DNA of 64,000 nucleotides from contig NC_134845.1 of the NCBI RefSeq assembly GCF_965363235.1, positions 68,849,261-68,913,260 of the forward strand, written 5' to 3'. The position numbers and the translations under genes are program-made. The first letter of the stretch is position 1, and every line of letters starts with the position of its first letter. Source of the stretch: Mytilus galloprovincialis (taxonomy: Eukaryota > Mollusca > Bivalvia > Mytilida > Mytilidae). The notes below the pieces were generated by a model that saw nothing but the letters and a program-made list of their open reading frames with translations, was not told the DNA's origin and made no database searches. Shown here one piece after another: positions 15,001-45,600 of this stretch.

Positions 15001-18000
15001 ATTCTTACCCCGCCACGGATGTCAATCTCCCTGATTTAAATACAATGAGTTTAGTTTTAGTTCGATACCTTGATGTGTATAATGATATATTATTATATAA
15101 GTTGTCAGTGTCTAATACCATTTTAATAGGGTTTTACTCATTGAAGTAACCGTCTTATCTTTTTTCTGAACGTTACATTGCCAATTGAATCATTCAAGAA
15201 AACAATTTAACACTTCAACAATTTCTTCCCTATTCCATAGAAATATTGCGTGAATATGACTTTATTGTAGTTCAAAACATTTATTATAACACATTAGTTA
15301 GTAAAGGATACTATATCTAGTCTTTATATAATATATTTTAAACATTATCTATAAACACAATTTGTTTCTCATATAATGTTTTAAAGGTAATGCGATCACA
15401 GAAGTACTGACAAATATGTTAATGTCGATTTCTACAAGTGAAACCAGAAGTTCCGTTATGGAAGATAACATGCAGAGTGCCACTTTGAATACAAGTCTGC
15501 CTTCAAACAAACATACCTTAACTACTTTTTCTGTTCACCAGGAAAGACCCCACTATCAAATTGAAAGAAAAGACAAAACAACAAGAAATGAAGGTACAAT
15601 TTTATTAGGCAAAACTAAATTCAGCGGATCAGAGTCAGAAATAAAAGGCATTGTTAAAATTGAATCATTTCCGCTTGAAGAACAGAAAATCAAAGTACTA
15701 GGAAGTGCTTCTCACTTTGAACATGGTAAATTGCACCAGAATGAAGAACCTGTGGAGTTTCATCTCTCAAAACAAATGCATATTCTTAAAGTTTTCCCAG
15801 AAGAAAAACATAAACATAGTAATACTTCTACATGTAACAAATCATTTGAAACTTTCGATGATTCATTTGTTAACGACGTAACTACAGCTATGATATCCAA
15901 TCATAATCCAGAACAACAGTTAAGGACATCAGAGAATGAAACTGATGAAAGAATAACCTTACCAAACCACGAACGTCGCGCTTCTTCAATGGATGTTTTA
16001 GAAACATCCATCGGACGGAAACATGCAATTTCCTCGCAGTTAGCCGAATCTTCAGGGAATAAACTTTATCTGCCGGTCGAATCAGAACCGACAACAGAAA
16101 GAGCAAGTGATATGTCATATGATAAAATACACCAACTGTTAGTGAAAGCAGTGAAGGAAGGTAAATACAAGCAAAGGATAGTACCTATAGATATCTGGGA
16201 CTTTGGAGGTCAAAAAGATTATTACATGACTCACCAGCTGTTCATAACCAGCAGGGGCATATTTGTATTGATGTTTAACGGCTTAATTGATCTACACAAA
16301 AGCATGTCCGACCTTAACTTTCTTCCTGGACATTTTGGAAAACCAACAATTGCAGGTACCGTAACAATTAATAGATATTTCTCTTATACCGCATATTATT
16401 GATTATAGATGCTGGTCGTTTTTAATAACTAGGGCGTGTTGAGTATAACGCTGTAATAATATCCTTACGTATCATTTCAGATATTATGAGAGACAAAAAT
16501 TTCGAACTAGAAATGCAAAGTCATCAGTAAAAAAAAAAAAACAAACTGACATGGCTAAAAAGAAAAACGAAACGTAACACTTCACAAAACACAAAAGGAG
16601 ACATAGAAAACTAAAGACCACTGATCATCACGCATCCTATTAGAACCAGGGGTTATCTCAGGTTCTCTAGATGAATTACCAGATCCTGCTCAAAATGTAA
16701 CATCAACCGTGTTTCTTTTGAAGATAAACCCAGGTTTTAACTGTAATATGAAAATTCACGTCCATGACAAAAATGTGTCCAATGTCTGGCCCCTCGACAA
16801 ATAAGCAAACCATGTAAAATAATAGGGTTATAAATGCGTTGACTGTGCGTACAGTTGGGTGCAGACCAAGCATTACATAAAGTAAACGCAAGTTAACGCC
16901 GCGTGCACATATTTCGTTAGTTAACTTCAAATATCCCGTTTACTAGTAAACGCACGTTTACTATAATTACGTTAACGTGGTCGAAATGGAAATTTCTAAT
17001 GTCTACCCTAGTAAACGGGCGTTTACTATGTGTCCGTTTAGTCAGTAGTAAACGGACGTTTACTTCAGAATTCTTCAAATTTATTTTTACGTGCACTTAA
17101 AAGTAAACGGGCGTTTACTACAGATTTTACAACTGTATTTTTACGTGCACTTGAAAGTAAACGCATGTTTACTTTTCGCGTTAACTGATTGGGTAAATTT
17201 AGAAATAAACTTCAAGTTCATTTGCACCTTTTTTTTTTTTATAAAAACGACCCTTAGTCTTAATATTTTACGTATATAATGAAGTATGTGTTTCAAACCA
17301 GAACAATTCAAAAACTCTTTTAATTCAAAATATTAAATTACACAAAATCACTTTCATTAAGTCCATTAACTTTACTGATTTGCAGATTTTTCTATATTTT
17401 CTTGGCTATTCACTTATTCTTGAACTATACATAGTAATAAATATTTGAAAACCCATTATCTTCTATTTTTTCAAGTAAAAATGGCTATGCAGGTGTTGAA
17501 AGGTATGGAATCATTGCTTTGTTAACAAAAAAAGAAGATCTATGCAGTTTGAAAACACTAAAAAAAAAACATTGCGTGCGTCGATAAAAGGTCGATAAAA
17601 AATCTCCAGTTTTGAAGCCCAAACTCCAGCTGAAAATTTCCAAATCTCCAGTTGTGGCTTGACAACTCTGTCACATGTCTGCTTTTCAAAAGTTACAGGT
17701 GCAAATATCGATACGGAAAGAAAGGTTATCTGAGACATAGGGAGAATATTTTTACATGATGGGATGTAAACATCATGGTTTACGTTGTTTCGTTCGCCAT
17801 TTATAATTTGTCTCTCCGAATTCCTAACTATAACTCGGTGCATTTAATATATTATTTTTAATCGAAATTCACCTTGTTTGCCTTGGATTAACATGATAAG
17901 ATTCTGTTATGACAAATGATAAAAAAAAAAACGTAAATTGTACAGTGTATTGAAAGGGATATCAATAAAGTGTAATATAAGTATGTACATTTGTACCATC

Positions 18001-21000
18001 TCGTCAATTTAAATGTTCAAATATTGCTATCTTTACATGGATATATAACTAATTTACTATGCAGCTATATATAGTGCTAATATGGTCTGTTTTGGTTATA
18101 ATTCGATTAGTCTGAGGTTAGAAAACTACTGAAATTTGTTTCAATATTCAATATTTTGAATAAAAAAAGGACGTGCTGGCACTCTTAATTGATGCGAACA
18201 AATTTTTTTAGTCATACTATTCAAATATTGCTACCTTTTTCATTATACAATCAATCCTTACATGAAAATATAACCCATTTACTATGCGGCAGTATAGATT
18301 TACATGATAAAATGCTGATATGGTCAGTTTTTGTTGTTGCGGACAAATAATTTTATTATATCAGTCAGTCTGAGGTATGAAAACTGCTGAATTTTGTTTA
18401 CGATTCAATATTTTGAATAAAAAAAGTACATGCTGGCACTCTAAATTGATGCGAACAACATTTTTTAGTCATAATATTCAAATATTGCTACCTATTTTAT
18501 TATACAATCAATCCTTACATGAAAATATAACTCATTTACTATGAGGCTATATATATTTACATAATAAAATGCTTATATGGTCAGTTTTGGTTGTTGCGGA
18601 CAAATAATTTTATTATATCAGTCAGTCTGAGGTATGAAAACTACTGAATTTTGTTTACAATACAATATTTTGAAGGAAAAAAAAAAGACATGCTGGCACT
18701 CTAAATTGATGCGAACAAAATTTTTTAGTCATAATATTCAAATATTGCTACCTATTTTATTATACAGTCAATCCTTACATGAAAATATAACTCATTTACT
18801 ATGAGGCTATATAGATTTACATAATAAAATGCTTATATGGTCAGTTTTGGTTGTTGCGGACAAATAATTTTTTTATATGAGTCAATCTAAGATATGCAAA
18901 CTATTAAATTTTGTTTACGATTCAATATTTTGAATAAAAAAAGGACATGCTGGCTCTCTTAATTGATGCGAACAAAATTTTTTAGTCATAATATTCAAAT
19001 ATTGCTACCTATTTTATTATACAATCAATCCTTACATGAAAATATAACTCATTTACTATGCGGCTATATAGATTTACATAATAAAATGCTGATATGGTCA
19101 GTTTTGGTTGTTGCGGACAAATAATTTTATTATATTAGTCAGTCTGCATGAGGTATGAAAACTACTGAATTTTGTTTACAATTCAATATTTTGAAGAAAA
19201 AAAAGACATGCTGGCACTCTAAATTGATGCGAACAAATTTTTTAGTCATAATATTCAAATATTGCTACCTATTTTATTATACAATCAATCCTTACACGAA
19301 AATATAACTCATTTACTATGAGGCTGTATAGATTTACATGATAAAATGCTTATATGGTCAGTTTTGGTTGTTGCGGACAAATAATTTTATTATATGAGTC
19401 AGTCTAAGATATGAAAACTATTAAATTTTGTTTACGATTCAATATTTTGAATAAAAAAAGGACATGCTGGCACTCTTAATTGATGCGAACAAAATTTTTT
19501 AGTCATAATATTCAAATATTGCTACCTATTTTATTGTACAATCAATCCTTACATGAAAATATAACTCATTTACTATGCGGCTATATAGATTTACATAATA
19601 AAATGCTTATATGGTCAGTTTTGGTGGTTGCGGACAAATAATTTTATTATATCAGTCAGTCTGAGGTATGAAAACTACTGAATTTTGTTTATGATTTAAT
19701 ATTTTGAAGAAAAAAAGGACATGCTGGCACTCTAAATTGATGCGAACAAAATTTTTAAGTCATAAAATTCAAATATTGCTACCTATTCTATTATACAATC
19801 AATCCTTACATGAAAATATAACTCTTCTACTATGTGGCTATATAGATTTACATAATAAAATGCTTATATGGTCAGTTTTGGTTGTTGGGGACACATTATT
19901 TTATTATATGAGTCAGTCTGAGATATGAAAACTAATGAATTTTGTTTACGATTCAATATTTTGAATACAAAAAGGACATGCTGGCACTTTTAATTGATGC
20001 GAACAAAATTTTTTAGTCATAATATTCAAATATTGCTACCTTTTTTTATTATACAATCAATCCTTACATGAAAATATAACTCATTTACTATGCGGCTATA
20101 TAGATGAACATAATGAAATGCTTATATGGTCAGTTTTGGTTGTTGAGGACAAATAATTTTATTATATTAGTCAGTCTGAGGTATGAAAACTACTGAATTT
20201 TGTTTACGATTCATTATTTTGAATAAAAAAGGACATGCTGTCACTCTAAATTGATGCGAACAAAATTTTTTAGTCATAGTAATCAAATATTGCTACTTAT
20301 TTTATTATACAATCAATTCTTACATGAAAATATAACTCATTTACTATGCGGCTATATAGATTTACATAATAAAATGCTTATATGGTCAGTTTTGGTCGTT
20401 GCGGACAAATAATTTTATTATATGAGTCAGTCAGAGATATGAAAACTAATGAATTTTGTTTACGATTCAATATTTTGAATAAAAAAAGGACTTGCTGGCA
20501 CTCTTAATTGATGCGAACAAATTTTTTTAGTCATAATATTCAAATATATGGTCAGTTTTGGTTGTTGCTGACAAATAACTTTATTATATCAGTCAGTCTG
20601 AGGTAAGAAAACTATTGAATTATGTTTGCGATTCAATATTTTGAATAAAAAAGAACATGCTGGCACTTTAAATTGATGCAAACAAAATTTTTATGTCATA
20701 ATATTTAAATATTGCTTCCTTTTTTTATTAAACAATCAATCTTTATATCAAAATATAGCTCATTTACTATGCGGGCTATATAGATTTACATAATAAATTG
20801 CTTATATGGTCAGTTTTGGTTGTTGCGAACAAATAATTATATATTACGAGTTAGTCTGATGTATGAAAACTACTGAATTTTGTTTACTATTCAATATTTT
20901 AAATAAAAAGAGGTCATGGCCGTCAGGCTGGTAAAAAAATTTCTGTCAATTGTATTATATGGTCAATTATGGCATAAAAATATAACTGAATTACTACTAT

Positions 21001-24000
21001 ATAGAATAAGATAGTTGTTAAACAGTTAAAGGGTAAATATTGTCAGTTTTGGTTAATTTTACGAGTCAGTCTGTCTAAGATGAGAAAACTGTTTGATTTT
21101 GGTGAGGATTAAATTACATTCATTTGAATAAACATACTTAAACTATTATTTGCGAAGAACAAGAAATTTACTATAATTATTGTTCAATTAAATACAAATG
21201 TGCGATAACATTTTTAAATAACTGTAATCGTCAATATGTCAAGCGGAAATGACCAGTTGGTCAATTAATTTTGATGTTCCTTATCAATTTATATTTTATG
21301 TAAATGTATCCAGGTTACGATGATAATCTGCGTTAACGGGCGTTTACTACAAACAGTAAACGCGCGTTTACTTATTACGAAAATAGAAGACGCGCATTTT
21401 TCCACGTTAACGCGGAGGTAAACGGGAAAGTAAACGCCCGTTTACTCTTTACAAAATTAGAAGACGCGCCGTTTTTGCGTTAACGCGGAGGTAAACGCGA
21501 AAGTAAACGACGTTTACTTTTAATGTCTACTGCAATTTCGGAGTTAACGCACAGTTAACGCGGCGTTTACGTGAAGTGCACGCGAGTAAACGCCGCGTTA
21601 ACTTTTTCGGCCCGTCTACATGTAATGCTTGGTCTGCACCCAACTGTACATTTAAAAAAAGCGGTTCATAAAAAATGTACTTCGGTCACACTATGACACC
21701 CCAACCAATATACTAAAAGAAGCATTAAATTCTTAAGTAAGAACACGATCATAGATGCTTTATATTTGTTTAGTGTATCTGCTACATTGGGTCAACTCAA
21801 TTTTGACATACTGCAAGAGAACAGATAACGGTTTTCCAAGGATTGTCTTTGTAGATACACACAAGGACAAGAAATGGTTCAAGGTAAATGAAAATATCAT
21901 TTCCATTGCAGATACAAATTTATTACATTAGATTTAACTGCATTTCTTTCTTTATTTTAATCGCTTTATACTTTTCTCGCATGATTGGTTATTTCTTAAG
22001 ATCAATATTTGACCTCACTTGATGTCATTTCTTTATTGTTTAAATATTTTATAACGACGTCACATTTTTTCGCTTTGCATGGTTTTTACTTTTGTGAAAT
22101 CACGAACAGAAGGTGATTGAGTATAATGACATAGAATTGACTGAGCACTGTCTTTTTGGTGAACCGTTAGAAGGAATTTCTACTTTCTATTTGAAATAGA
22201 ATGTGAGGTGTATCATTTGTATATATTTCCTCTGATATAATTTTTATACTATGTCAAAATTAAGATTTTACTAACCTCATTCAAAAATATAACAAAAATT
22301 GACGATCACCGTGCTACTTTTCAAGCTGCAAGTCGTCCAATTATCCAATTTTGCATTGATCAGTCAGAAAATAAAACGTTTTTGTGCATACTAAGAAATC
22401 TATTAGATAGCATTTTTCAATAAAATATGTGAAGAACAGTTTGATTATATGCTTAAGAAAATTAAAAAAAAACATTTTATCACCGAACTTGTTTTCTTGA
22501 CAAGAGTAAAAATTGAGAATTTCCTAATCACTCCAGTATAGATATAGACTATAGAGTGATCTCCCCTTATATGCCAATGTTGAAAAAATGATTCTTACAA
22601 AACAAATATTTGGTAGGTGTTAAAACATTTTAGTAAATGTAATAAGTCACTTACGTTTCTTCAAACAAGAGGGGCGAAATGTTAATTTATGCAAATAAAC
22701 AGTCTACGCCTGTCCTTACTAGTCAGGAATATAATGTCCAGTAGTTGTCGTTTGTTAATGTGGGTCATAAGTGTTTCTCGTTTCTCATTTTTTACATACA
22801 TTTACCGCTGGTTTTCCTATTTGAATGGTTCAACACAAGTCATCTATGGGGCCCTTCATATTTTACTGTTCGGTGTGAGCCAAGGCTCTGTGTTGAAGAC
22901 CGAACTTTGATCTATAATAATTAATTTTTACAAATTGTGACAATGAAGTGTGGTCTTATTGGCACTCATACCACATATTATTATATCTATTTACACAAGC
23001 ATTGCAAATCTGTGTAAACATTTTCAAAAAAAGGCAAATATTAAGACCGATTTAGCACTGCTACTATGTAATCCAAGATGGCGATATACCATTAATATAC
23101 CTTAATACACTAACATTTAGAGAAGTGATAAAAAAGTCAGAATTTGCCTTAAAATATCTGTATTAACATTCGTGTGCACTCGTTACGATATAAGGTGAAA
23201 CAAAACAAAAATACAGAACTCTAACTGAATTCAAATCGGAAATTCTTTTATAAATGCAAATTCAAAAGCTCGAAGACACATCTATGCGACTGTCATACAA
23301 GTGACAGGTTTAGCTAGCTATAAAACCTGGTTCAATCCACCATTTTCTACATAAGAAAATGCCTGTACCAAGTCAGGAATATGACAGTTGTTATCCATTC
23401 GTTTGATGTATTTGAACTTTTGATTTTGCCATTTGATTGGGGACTTTCCTTTTTGAATTTTCCTTGGAGTTCAGTATTTTTGTGATTTTACTTTTTATCT
23501 AACGAATGAACAAATGTCATATTTCTGACTTGGTACAGGCATTTCCCTTTTTATCTGAACCTTGCACTTATATGACAGACGCATTGAATTCCATTATATT
23601 GACAACAATATGTGAGCAAAAGAAAACAGACATACATATTTGTATAGGAGCCAGCTGAAGGACTCCTCTGGGTGAAAGAGATTCTCCCTGCATTGAAGAC
23701 CCATTGGCTGTTGTCTGCTTTGGGGTCGGGTTGTTGTCTCTTTGACACATTTCCGATTTCCATTCACAATTTTTGATAGGTAAAAGTATTTCAAAAATGG
23801 ACTAAACAGTAAAAAAGGGTAAAGTTAAACACGTTTTTGAGATGATAAACAACATCAGTACATATAATCTATACTTCAAGACCTTCATGTATTAATTGTA
23901 AAGTTGATACGGAATATTTATCTACAAGGTCTTGTTATTGTCAAGTGAATTGTTTTATATAATAAAGCACGAGATGTTCTTTGGTATAATCTTTGCTCAT

Positions 24001-39600: not shown

Positions 39601-42600
39601 TTATATCATAGCAACATTTAAACATATATATATATATTTTGTTGATCTCTTCCTATATAAAAAGTAAAATCACAAAAATACTGAACTCAGAGGAAAATCA
39701 ATTCGGAAAGTCCATAATCACATGGCAAAATCAAATAGCAAAACGCAACAAAGACGAATGAACAAGAACTGTCATATTCCTGACTTGGTACAGGCATTTT
39801 CAAATGTAGAAAATGGTGGATTGAACCTGGTTTTATAGCTAGCTAAACCTCTCACTTGTATCACAGTATCTTTAAAATTTAATATCACCACAAATATTGT
39901 ATTTGCATTGTGTCATATATATCAAATTTATTCGTGCAGTGATAGTTCACCTTTTTTTGTTCAACTGCCTTTTCTGTCCAGTTAAGCCATTCAAAGTAAT
40001 ATGTCAGAGTGTGTCCTTTTGTGTTGTTATGTGACACTACTGTCTCAGCTTGTTATGTAATTTTATACACATGTCCTTAGTCAGGAGCCTGTTTTTTATT
40101 GCTTGTCGTTTGTTGCTGTGGTGAATAGGGGTTTCTCGTTTTTTTTTATTAGATAAAGCACTCATACCACATTTTCTGACTTCAAATGATGAGAACTATT
40201 GTTTCAATATTGACGATTTCTGACAATAACAAGCAAAAGTAATTTTCGAGTGATATCTGATTCTAGGTTAAAAACAAATGCTACATATTTGGAATCGTAC
40301 TTGTTGCAAGAAAAGCAGCGTTTCTGTGGGTAATGGACAATCGCATAGTTTTAGCTAGGACTTTCGAGTTGCTTTATATAAATATACAGTTTTTCTCAAT
40401 ATGACTGCGTTATAATGGTGTAAAGAAAAATATATAATGCCTGTGTCAATTATAGTAACTTAAGAAATGTTTTGAAAGCAATAATTGACACTGACATACA
40501 CTAAACCAGCATTATTTACAAAAGTAAACCTTTCAACGGAAAGTGAACTTACTTGCAATGCATTCAAAAATGTTTTCTCTGAAACTTACGCAAAACATTT
40601 TATGCATTATTATTATCAGTTTACCATAATTATTATTATTTGTAGATATTTTAATTTTTGTTATATATATTTCAACCTACCTGAAGAGAATTGAAAATTG
40701 CGAAAAGGTATTGAAAGATGACCAATTTTTCCATCATGGAAAATACTCCTAGTACCCACGTAACACCAAATAATGGTAACAGTATGCATACACTTTTAAA
40801 TCCAACCCTAGAATAGAAATAATTAAAGGGTATTTTTTATCCAAGATACCATTGTTTCTGTATTATAGTTACACTATTGTTCCTTCTTATTTATTTTCGC
40901 TCAAATAAATTAATCATATAGATTTCTATGGTAAATTCAATAACATGCTCTATCGTCAAATTACAGGCTTCTTAATGATATTTTGCAACACACAGAAAAC
41001 AAATATCAGACATTGTCATTGATATGTACGAAAGCGAATTAGCGCCATACAACTTTTTTTTTAATACTGCTTCCTATGTTCGCGTTATAACGCAAACTTT
41101 TGCGTTGTAACTCAAACATTTGCGATATAACGCAAACCTTTGCGCTACAACGCAAACATTTGCGGTTAACGCAAACCTTTGCGATATAACACAAACCTTT
41201 GCAATATAACGCAAACATTTGCGAAATAGCGCAAACAAATTTATTTCAATTATTCATTAAGTTTTGTATGTCTGTCTGTCCGTCTGTCATTACTTTTGGT
41301 TGTGATTTACTAGAAAATACGAAAAGAAATAAATACAATCTTTATAATAAATATGCATAGGAATATAAGGGATTACTTGAAGTGCAATTATACATGAATC
41401 AAGAATGATATGTGCATCAGAAAAGTATTTAATTTAACAAGCAAATAGATATAGTAAAGACATATTTTAATTGAAAGATCAAAAATAATGTCATACAATT
41501 GTGAAACTCCCAGGTCAAATAGAAAAAAATGATCTTTCTGCTTTAAAATGAATTATTAATAATGAAACATTTTGTTTTCAAATCTCAGAATATGATAATA
41601 ATTCTATGATAGAAAGTCATTGAGTTTATATTTCAATATAGTGAAGTATTTTAAGAAGCTTTGGTAGCAATTTGAAAAGAGAGAACATAATTATATTGAT
41701 AAAACATCTTTATTCTATACACTTTTTGCCAAATGGTAGCTTTTCTTTTAATATAACCAACTTCACACAGTCCTCAATAGTTAGCAAAGGTACCAGGATT
41801 ATAATTTAGTACGCCAGACGCGCATTTCGTCTACATAAGACTCATCAGTGACGCTCATATCAAAATATTTATAAAGCCAAACAAGAACAAACTTGAGGAG
41901 CATTGAGAATCCAAAACTCCAAAAAAGTTGTGCCAAATACGGCTAAGGTAATTTATGCCTGGGATAAGAAAATCCTTAGTTTTTCGAAAAATTTAAAGTT
42001 TTGTAAATTGGAAATTTATAAAAATGACCACATTATTGATATTTATGTCAACACCGAAGTGTTGACTACTGGGCTGGTGATACCCTAGGGGACGAAACAT
42101 CCACCAGCAGTGGCATCGACCCAGTGATGTAAATAGTTATCAAAGGTACGAGGATTATAATTTAGTACGCAAGACGCGCGTTTCGTCTATATAAGACTCA
42201 TCGGTGACGCTCAAATCAAAATATTTATAAAGCCAAACAAGAACAAAGTTGAAGAGCATTGATAATCCAAAATTCCAAAAAGTTGTGCCAAATACGGCTA
42301 AGGTAATCTATGCCTGGGATAAGAAAATCCTTAGTTTTTTGAAAAAGTGGCAGTGGCATCGACTCAGTGGTGTAAATATTTATCAAAGGTACCAGGATTA
42401 TAATTTAGTACACCAGTCGCGCGTTTCGTCTACATAAGAGTCATCAGTGACGCTCATATCAAAATATTTATAAAGCCAAACAAGAACAAAGTTGAAAAGC
42501 ATTGAAAGTCCAAAATTCCAAAAGATTGTGCATCAAACGAGAGCTTACTTTGGAAGTATATTTATATTTTGCTATAGCTGTATTAGCAGGGTTGATTTTT

Positions 42601-45600
42601 TATATTCTTCGATATTACTTCATTTTATTAAATGTTCTTTGTACATATATATACATGTATTTATTATCATGTATATAATTTTTTGGGCCTAGTATAGCTT
42701 GCTGTTCGGTGTTAGCTAAGATGCCGTGTTGAAGACCATACTTTGACCCGTATTTAATGGTTTCATTTTAGAAATGTTGAATTAAATGGAAAATTGTCTC
42801 ATTGCCATTAATACCATATCTTCTTATATCTATTATCCTACTCATTATTTGTCAATGATATGTTCTAAAAAATCAAGCATTTTTCTTTGCAATGATAACA
42901 CAGGAGTACAAATGTTAATGTATGCAGTCTCCTCTATTAATAACTGCTTATCCTTTGAATCTTAAATAAAAAATAAGATAAAACAAATGTTTGCTTTATA
43001 TCGCAAATGTATGCGTTATAACGCAAACATAGGAGTAGATAATAAAATAAAAAGTTGTGTGGCGCTAATACGCTTCCGTAGATATGTTCATTTTCTTTTA
43101 ACATGTTTAAAGATGAATGTTGATAAAATAATGGAATATCTGAAATCCCAATATATTTCTAGCTCCTGTTATTATAGCCATAACCGATTCTTTGAATTAG
43201 TTGGTAAATAATACTCTTCAACTTTGATTTTAACTGTTTAGATTGGGGCATCAAAATAATTTTAACAGATTTAACATACTGACCAGCATGAGTCATTACT
43301 ATCAAATACAATAACTTACTTTGATTTCATTTTCAGGGATTTCTTTTCAAACCCTCTCGCTGTCATTATTCTATACACCATTATAGCAAAAATAACAAAA
43401 TTAATCTGAAAAACACAATTTGAAAAATATGTACAAAACCTATTTAGAATATATGTTATTTACTTCTAGGGAACGTGAAATTATTTGTTTTTTTCTCTCT
43501 GATTTTCTTTATTGTGCAAAATGGATTGAGGTTTTTCTTTCTACCCACCGCTGACCCCGGCTACCTCATGTTTAGATTCACTGCAATGTTATTCACTTTC
43601 CTTATTTGGTACTAAATTTGCAGAATTCACTAATGATTTTCATAAAACACAATCATTTGCCCTTTATGGGTCAAACAGTCAATTTAAGTCAATTACAGTA
43701 ACTTTGACCCCCCCCCGAAAAAAAATGTGACAAATTGGAAAAAACTTGAATCATAATTTCATGTCGATATGCACAACTAACTTATTCATGTTATTATCTA
43801 CAAAATTTCATTAAATTCTGTTTGTGGTTTCAGAGAAGTTGCAATGACAAACTGTTGCAGAGGTATATTGAAGCAAATAAGTTAAAAGGGGCGTTACTCC
43901 TAGAATAAAATTGAATCATAATTTCCTGTAGATATGCACATCTACGTAGTATGTTCTTATTATCTACAAAATTTCATGAAATTCTTTTGGGTTGTTTCAG
44001 AGAAATTGCGATGACAAACTGTTGCAGTAATATATGAAGTAAATAAGTTCAAAGGGGCGTAACTCCTAGAAAACAAAATTTATCGTAATTTCCTGTCGAT
44101 ATACACATCTACATAGTATGTCCTTATCATCAAAAAAAGTTTCAAGAAATTCTGTTGTGTTGTTTCAGAGGATTCGCATTGAAAAACTGTTACAGTATAT
44201 AATATATTGAAAATAATAATTTCAAAGGGGCGTAAGTCCTATAAAATAAAATGAATTGTAATTTGTCGTCGATATGCACATCTACATAGTATGTCCTTAT
44301 CATCTAAATAGTTTTCACGAAATTCTGTTGTGTGATTTGAGAGGATGTGCGACGGAAAGAAACAGGACGGACAGACTGACTGACAGACTGACGGATGGTT
44401 AAAAACAGTAGGTAAATATGCTTCAATGTATAGTCATATCGTTCTTTCTTTGACTTTTGTACTTACCAAAATTACAAGCAATGCTGGCCCGATGAACGCC
44501 CATATGAGGTTTGATTCAAGGGTCAACCAACAACTAGAACAAAAAAAAAAAAACAACCTATACGACCATTATTTCAAAAATTGTCAAACACTATTAACTA
44601 ACAATTATGTAGATCCCTTTAATGCATGGCCATTATTTTCTCGGTACATGTTTGTCTAAGCGGACCTTAGAGGTTAACGAAGCAAAAGCTTGAAAGATAA
44701 TAATACATATTCTTGAAATAAACAAAAGGACTTGCGAAAACATTCTTCTACATTTGAAACATGTAAAATGTAGAAAGACATCATCTTCAAAACTGGATGT
44801 CAACGCAGAGCTAGATACATGTAGGTAAATAGGCAGACAAAAGATAAATTTAAAACAATATCAATTGAATTCGGTTCAAGTTTGGACATTCCCAACATGT
44901 TAAAACTGTAAACAATATAATGCTTTAATAAAGGCATTGAATACGTATAGTAGAAATTAAAACCATACATGTATAAAGAAGTTTCTAGACAGTTCATGTC
45001 AGAAAACATGCACATATGATAAGCTGACAATAATTAAAGTCTGGTTTTTAAATTCTTTAAAATACTGAAACAGGGGAAGGGATATAGAATGTACTGTTAA
45101 AGGAAAGATAGAGTATATGCAATGATCATATTGGCTATAATATAATAGATACTTAGTGTTATTAGAAAAAGTGTTTTTTCAAGAGTTTTCTATTTGAATG
45201 AATGTTGTTTAGCCTGCACTTTGTAACAACAGGTGTTTCACATGCCAAAATATTCATACATATGTCAATTTGTTGGCGTACTGATTCTCATATATGATCT
45301 CTGTGTTTCATCTTATAGAGACTTCACGTGGGAATGTAACCAGTATAGAAAATTATGGTAGCGTCTAAAATTAAATATAGGTTAGGGGTAGTTTATAATT
45401 TTAGTATTGTTAACTCTTAGAATGTCACGGCATATACACGTTGAAAGTATGCTGCACAGCCCTTTTTTGACATTTGAATAAAACAGTAATGCATATCATT
45501 TTTTTTCAAGATACTTCATAATAAAAGTGGCACATTGTTCAAATTGAGGTTTCTTCCATATATCTTTTTAATTTATTTTTTATTTTTTGAGTTCTTCGTC

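Follow-up and report, generated by a model that had tools for sequence, protein, structure and literature searches.

How does a satellite array with an ordered, two-type repeat pattern come to lie within a single transposable element, at a single intron? This question is raised by a locus of Mytilus galloprovincialis where ~257-bp units of two types, A and B, follow each other in tandem. The first-pass annotation proposed that the array had grown there in ~514-bp dimers by unequal exchange. We analysed a window of 64,000 nucleotides around it (C8:68849261-68913260) and searched the whole genome (1.385 Gb, 331 contigs).

Tandem Repeats Finder gave a 257-bp period with 9.5 copies (18109-20547) and, at 20379-20712, a register of 166 bp. 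The units were numbered u1 to u11 (Table 1). The annotation had described eleven units of ~257 bp, in strict A-B order from 18691 onward. Typed by c67, a single marker column, u1 to u11 read A A B A B A B A B A A, so the strict alternation stands from u2 to u10; the equal length does not, u9 being truncated and the diverged tail being made up of u10 and u11. On the tree of the units, u10 sat on a long branch and grouped with the B types. The window also has tandem arrays at 43738-44350 (173-bp period, 3.6 copies) and at 41082-41237 (20-bp period, with higher registers of 59 and 79 bp). At gathering thresholds, Rfam gave no match in the window.

The two types differ at linked positions, as first described. 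Four alignment columns split u1-u9 perfectly into units 3, 5, 7 and 9 versus units 1, 2, 4, 6 and 8, and none of the other 125 partitions into four and five units was matched by more than one column. Identity at lag 2 was higher than at lag 1, with permutation p values of 0.0097 (u1-u9), 0.0029 (u2-u9) and 0.0106 (u1-u10), and of 0.065 without the truncated unit and the partial ends. The marker switched type at 8 of 10 steps when these units were included (p = 0.043) and at 6 of 8 when they were dropped (p = 0.12). The alternation in the window array is thus confirmed as real, with p from 0.003 to 0.12 depending on the version of the test.

Table 1 Features of the array-bearing element and of its host gene in the window (positions are those of the window).
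Feature	Positions	Strand	Basis
Whole TIR element, 4795 bp	16852..21646	+	TIR pair, TA on both sides, joined flanks matching empty sites
Left 27-bp terminal inverted repeat (TIR)	16852..16878	+	Genome-wide TIR pattern search
Right 27-bp terminal inverted repeat	21620..21646	-	TIR pattern search, arm comparison
TA target-site duplication, left	16850..16851	.	TA before the left end in 40/40 fetched loci
TA target-site duplication, right	21647..21648	.	TA after the right end in 38/38 loci where the right end was found
Left arm; near the end, repeated AGTAAACG/CGTTTACT-type palindromes	16879..18075	+	Fetched long elements match, except for the private insertion
Left-arm insertion private to the window copy	17404..17681	.	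CTT on each side (17401-17403, 17682-17684)
257-bp tandem array	18076..20930	+	Diverged tail matched to about 21011
Units u1 and u2 (u2 starts at 18570), type A	18314..18829	+	Unit alignment, split columns
Unit u3, type B	18830..19086	+	Unit alignment, split columns
Unit u4, type A	19087..19346	+	Unit alignment, split columns
Unit u5, type B	19347..19604	+	Unit alignment, split columns
Unit u6, type A	19605..19863	+	Unit alignment, split columns
Unit u7, type B	19864..20119	+	Unit alignment, split columns
Unit u8, type A	20120..20375	+	Unit alignment, split columns
Unit u9, type B, truncated to 166 bp	20376..20541	+	Unit alignment, split columns
Conserved tail, u10 and partial u11 (u11 starts at 20800)	20542..20930	+	Same tail types in six sister arrays read
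Right arm with subterminal repeats	20931..21619	+	Tandem-repeat and arm comparison
Host gene exon, part of the Roc (GTPase) domain; GT at 16356	15416..16355	+	Start = ORF start
Host gene next exon, frame containing HWVNSILTYC	21770..21893	+	By eye from the frame, ends approximate

The array lies inside one inverted-repeat DNA element, bounded by 27-bp TIRs and a TA duplication. Its placement in the intron of a coding gene also held up. The frame upstream matched a Roc domain (29.1 bits, cut-off 27), and the element is in a predicted intron of this gene, between the exon end and the resuming frame (Table 1).

When the flanks of the window element were joined, a ~130-bp repeat ran across the junction at 38 non-self places (best identity 83%), and the matches stopped at the junction in two self-hits only. 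For a sister element on C42, treated in the same way, a repeat spanned the junction in all 40 best-matching places scored. These junction-crossing repeats are empty sites, and both elements are therefore true insertions. The repeat in which the window element landed is palindromic (16813-16851 and 21649-21740).

The left arm of the window copy has a private insertion of 278 bp. The alignments of other long elements break near arm position 550 and restart near 833, and blastn found no second copy of the insertion within the 64-kb window. Many palindromic AGTAAACG/CGTTTACT-type motifs lie near both element ends (16945-17175 and 21350-21600), and array-free relatives have similar ones in their outermost 100 bases. 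They are perhaps candidate binding sites of a transposase.

Across the genome, the 27-bp TIR had 217 forward and 214 reverse sites with at most two mismatches (reversed-pattern control: 0), and a word from the unit occurred 652 and 527 times on the two strands (control: 0). Among the first 100 TIR sites listed, 38 elements were paired by eye; one is the window copy, and the 37 others were fetched. The fetched sample comprises the first listed contigs and the best array matches, and is not a random draw. The reading stopped short of most elements on the later contigs, of the inner parts of the longest copies and of the array loci C1:30.91M and C5:27.97M. Of the exact-TIR pairs fetched, all 20 that were at least 2.8 kb long had the array and all 17 of at most 1.35 kb lacked it. 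This agrees with the annotation's view that the element spreads the satellite array around the genome. The array-bearing elements measured 2.8 to 8.9 kb. Their array-free relatives, with arms about 84-89% identical to those of the window copy over the main stretches, measured 0.95 to 1.35 kb, so that even these exceed the few hundred bases of a strict MITE. Among the matches listed (100 per pattern), 75 right and 71 left ends of the long class were recognized by eye, forming at least 56 end pairs 1.55 to 35.4 kb apart and leaving 15 left ends unpaired. Exact left ends numbered 126; among the 100 listed, C1-C4 together had 6, C5 had 14 and C11 had 22.

Element ends that begin with CAGT point to Tc1/mariner. 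The TA target and the CAGT ends suggest a transposase of the Tc1/mariner type. An 18-letter pattern, TA followed by the 16 bases that open the TIR, gave 324 sites and indicated no autonomous partner. For the transposase domain PF13358, 150 of 764 candidates were scored and gave 150 matches, none of which was seen inside an element in an informal comparison by eye with the element ends. Neither search thus yielded a transposase or partner for the family. The closest match noticed by eye and an unpaired left end on C11 are ~14 kb from each other (26.02M vs 26.04M); a rough estimate puts the chance expectation at about one neighbour of this kind.

Where the window units have their relatives was assessed in a set of 396 aligned units from 24 arrays, including those on C2 (L048), C12 (L049) and C9 (L050). 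Further kin were read on C42, at C8:81.25M, at C13:67.01M and at C11:62.08M, the last with one partial unit and no unit string. For all ten window units scored, the closest relative was outside the window array, in sister elements on other contigs. A second nearest-relative test agreed, with none of nine window units closest to a unit of its own array. Identities to units of other elements were 97.3 to 99.6%, above any match within the array. The order of the units is shared as well. The in-order match score was reached by none of 2000 shuffles for C13, C12, C9, C2 and C8:81.25M, and p was 0.001 for C42; some nearest-unit matches between sisters were out of order. The edges of the arrays are fixed. 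A homologous first unit and tail were common to the seven arrays of this sublineage, with the edge units staying in place, and the tail units of the window had their closest relatives in the tail units of sister elements. All six sister arrays read also had a truncated unit of 167-171 bp ahead of the tail.

These comparisons bear directly on growth at the window locus itself, by successive duplication of a 514-bp dimer and unequal exchange in the style of centromeric higher-order repeats. Such growth would account for the excess of lag-2 over lag-1 identity, and for the likeness of alternate units (98.1% between u3 and u5, 96.9% between u2 and u4). However, every scored window unit is closer to other elements than to its own array, and the unit order is shared with sister elements, which makes growth in place highly improbable. 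The unequal exchange that the annotation placed at this locus is contradicted by the same result. Of the proposed growth in dimers, a two-unit pattern stands for the ancestor only, as seen with C9 and C12.

Alternation by c67 was found in two of the sisters. The type switched at 24 of 31 steps in C9 (p = 0.0002; 0.008 with truncated units dropped) and at 22 of 28 in C12 (p = 0.0014; 0.0005 with truncated units dropped). Switching was not significant in C2 (18/31, p = 0.26), C13 (6/11, p = 0.25), C8:81.25M (4/5, p = 0.20) and C42 (2/4, p = 0.80). Both B markers, c67 and c138, were present in 33 of the 396 units, 30 of them in the window, C2, C9 and C12 arrays and the remainder in L039 (two) and L011 (one). 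The joint c64 and c67 form was found only in the same four sublineage arrays. Outside the sublineage, six of the 20 arrays also had the B allele of c67, on its own in L027, L028, L035 and L041, and this variant is therefore older than the sublineage. None of the six outside arrays with both alleles had c67 alternation (p 0.39 to 0.97).

Units might also have been swapped between elements by gene conversion or ectopic recombination, the similarity then reflecting exchange and not descent by transposition. This reading could draw on the out-of-order nearest units and on the B-like marker variants that recur in arrays of other lineages. It is opposed by the arms. The tree of the outer left arm put the sublineage in one clade with support 0.93, as did that of the inner left arm (C13 left out) with 0.99 and that of the right arm (C2 left out) with 1.00; C11:62.08M was in none of the three. 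Arms and array give the same sublineage, and so they moved together. The edge units, fixed in all seven sublineage arrays read, also speak against exchange. The left arm of the C2 copy looked mosaic when gaps were counted (94 and 98%), but this was rejected as a gap artefact, the gap-free halves being 98.3 and 99.1% identical. Unit exchange is thus an improbable source of the similarity.

The window units are closest to other elements and largely in the same order, and arms and array are concordant; hence a preformed array was carried by transposition of the whole element. We regard it as very probable that the locus holds a non-autonomous, TA-inserting cut-and-paste transposon with the 257-bp array as its cargo, and that the A-B order was inherited and not built here.

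Other copies changed in their own ways. Over the whole set, 176 of 396 units had their nearest relative in the same array, for example 27/29 units in L048 and 20/27 in L012. The window, L017, L026, L027, L035, L043 and L044 had no such unit. The spacing between same-array relatives was mainly 5 in L012, L022 and L045, 8 or 9 in L029, 9 in L050, 5 and 8 in L048, and 2 to 4 in L018. This is amplification that took place in the individual copy or in the parent from which it recently came. The dimer as a rule for the whole family was rejected, the best lags in 21 arrays being 1, 2, 3, 4, 5, 7, 8 or 9. In these 21 arrays, lag 2 exceeded lag 1 with p < 0.05 only in L041 (0.036), L048 (0.029) and L049 (0/5000).

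Two copies on C11, at 77.09M (15.9 kb) and 77.24M (35.4 kb; L059-L062 for the two), share both flanks (97.8 and 99.2%) and so look like one insertion that was segmentally duplicated. Both carry nested foreign DNA. Their length difference does not count here as evidence of array growth: array sequence was found in one of five sampled pieces, and both copies had non-array DNA. A duplicated pair on C14 had 99.0% identity in the one flank compared, and the same end-to-end distance of about 1637 bp.

The satellite could instead be older than the element and independent of it, captured by the TIR element, with dispersed arrays outside elements as its true source. Two array pieces on C1 would fit this, with 4 and 5 unit matches (partial ones included) that are roughly 73 to 87% identical to the family, and with neither TIR nor left arm in the sequence read. 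However, right-arm sequence adjoins both pieces (75.7% over 251 bp; 85% over 40 bp), and such remains fit old element remnants. In addition, the first 100 of 1179 unit sites listed include 15 array loci; as judged by eye, 11 of these lay in or beside element ends, two are the C1 pieces and two were outside the comparison. An independent satellite is therefore unlikely. The two C1 pieces may be what is left of old elements, or they may be an older source of the satellite, so that the transposon may, but need not, have given birth to the satellite as the annotation suggested. Diverged array pieces on C1 are L057, L058 and L065.

Inheritance of a preformed array builds on the element ends, the TA duplication, the two empty sites, the arm-array agreement and the in-order unit homology between copies, all of which were directly observed. 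In the history that we propose, part of the array would have acquired an A-B-A-B order in the ancestor of one sublineage. The ordered array would then have moved with its arms to new sites, among them the window intron. The window copy would have kept the inherited order with little later change, and some sister copies would have amplified multi-unit blocks further, between fixed edge units. These block changes may have come from unequal recombination or from gap repair after excision, and the data fit either.

Linked variants that recur at multi-unit spacing are shared with centromeric higher-order repeats. The window units differ from these in that they are not a recently homogenised multimer; their pattern would have been inherited with the element. 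Multimers most alike within their own array, as in the centromere type, were found in other copies such as L048 (27/29) and for none of nine window units. Helitrons and Helentrons are defined by insertion without TIRs and target-site duplication. The mussel element has both a TIR and a TA duplication, and is thus of another kind.

Satellite-like arrays dispersed as cargo of a non-autonomous element are described for the Helentron Cg_HINE of Crassostrea gigas, with monomers mostly of 140-180 bp and arrays mostly of up to 5 monomers, the longest of about 29 (PMC7492417). Cg_HINE is a rolling-circle element by that account, whereas the mussel element has 27-bp TIRs and a TA duplication. The miDNA4 element of Xenopus tropicalis (Scalvenzi and Pollet 2014) is, as reviews describe it, a TIR element assigned to Tc1/mariner, whose internal satellite is a single monomer or an array of variable length (PMC12628747, PMC9659126). 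On this description the two are alike in being TIR elements with an internal satellite array. Measured against the same reviews, the mussel element differs from miDNA4. Its array-class ends are separated by ~1.6 to 35 kb, foreign DNA being nested in the longest, and in one sublineage the A/B order is inherited and the edge units are fixed. A clam MITE with tandem repeats, in Donax trunculus, is indicated by a title on tandem-repeat-containing MITEs (reference list of PMC12628747). Among titles and abstract openings of the open-licence literature, we found no description of a higher-order array inside a TIR element. The mussel element joins a known kind, the satellite-bearing TIR elements, with miDNA4 as the nearest described case.

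Long arrays homogenise, which makes the beginnings of higher-order satellite structure difficult to observe. The same short array is present here in dispersed insertions, with unit homology and fixed edges, and so block gains and losses can be reconstructed. We suggest, tentatively, that higher-order patterns may first form within a transposon, which then copies them, already complete, to many chromosomes. If this is true, the sublineage would record the formation of higher-order repeats like a series of fossils that can be read, with units homologous one by one over seven insertions and element-specific block amplification on top. The locus also calls for caution: a higher-order pattern at a locus need not have arisen there.
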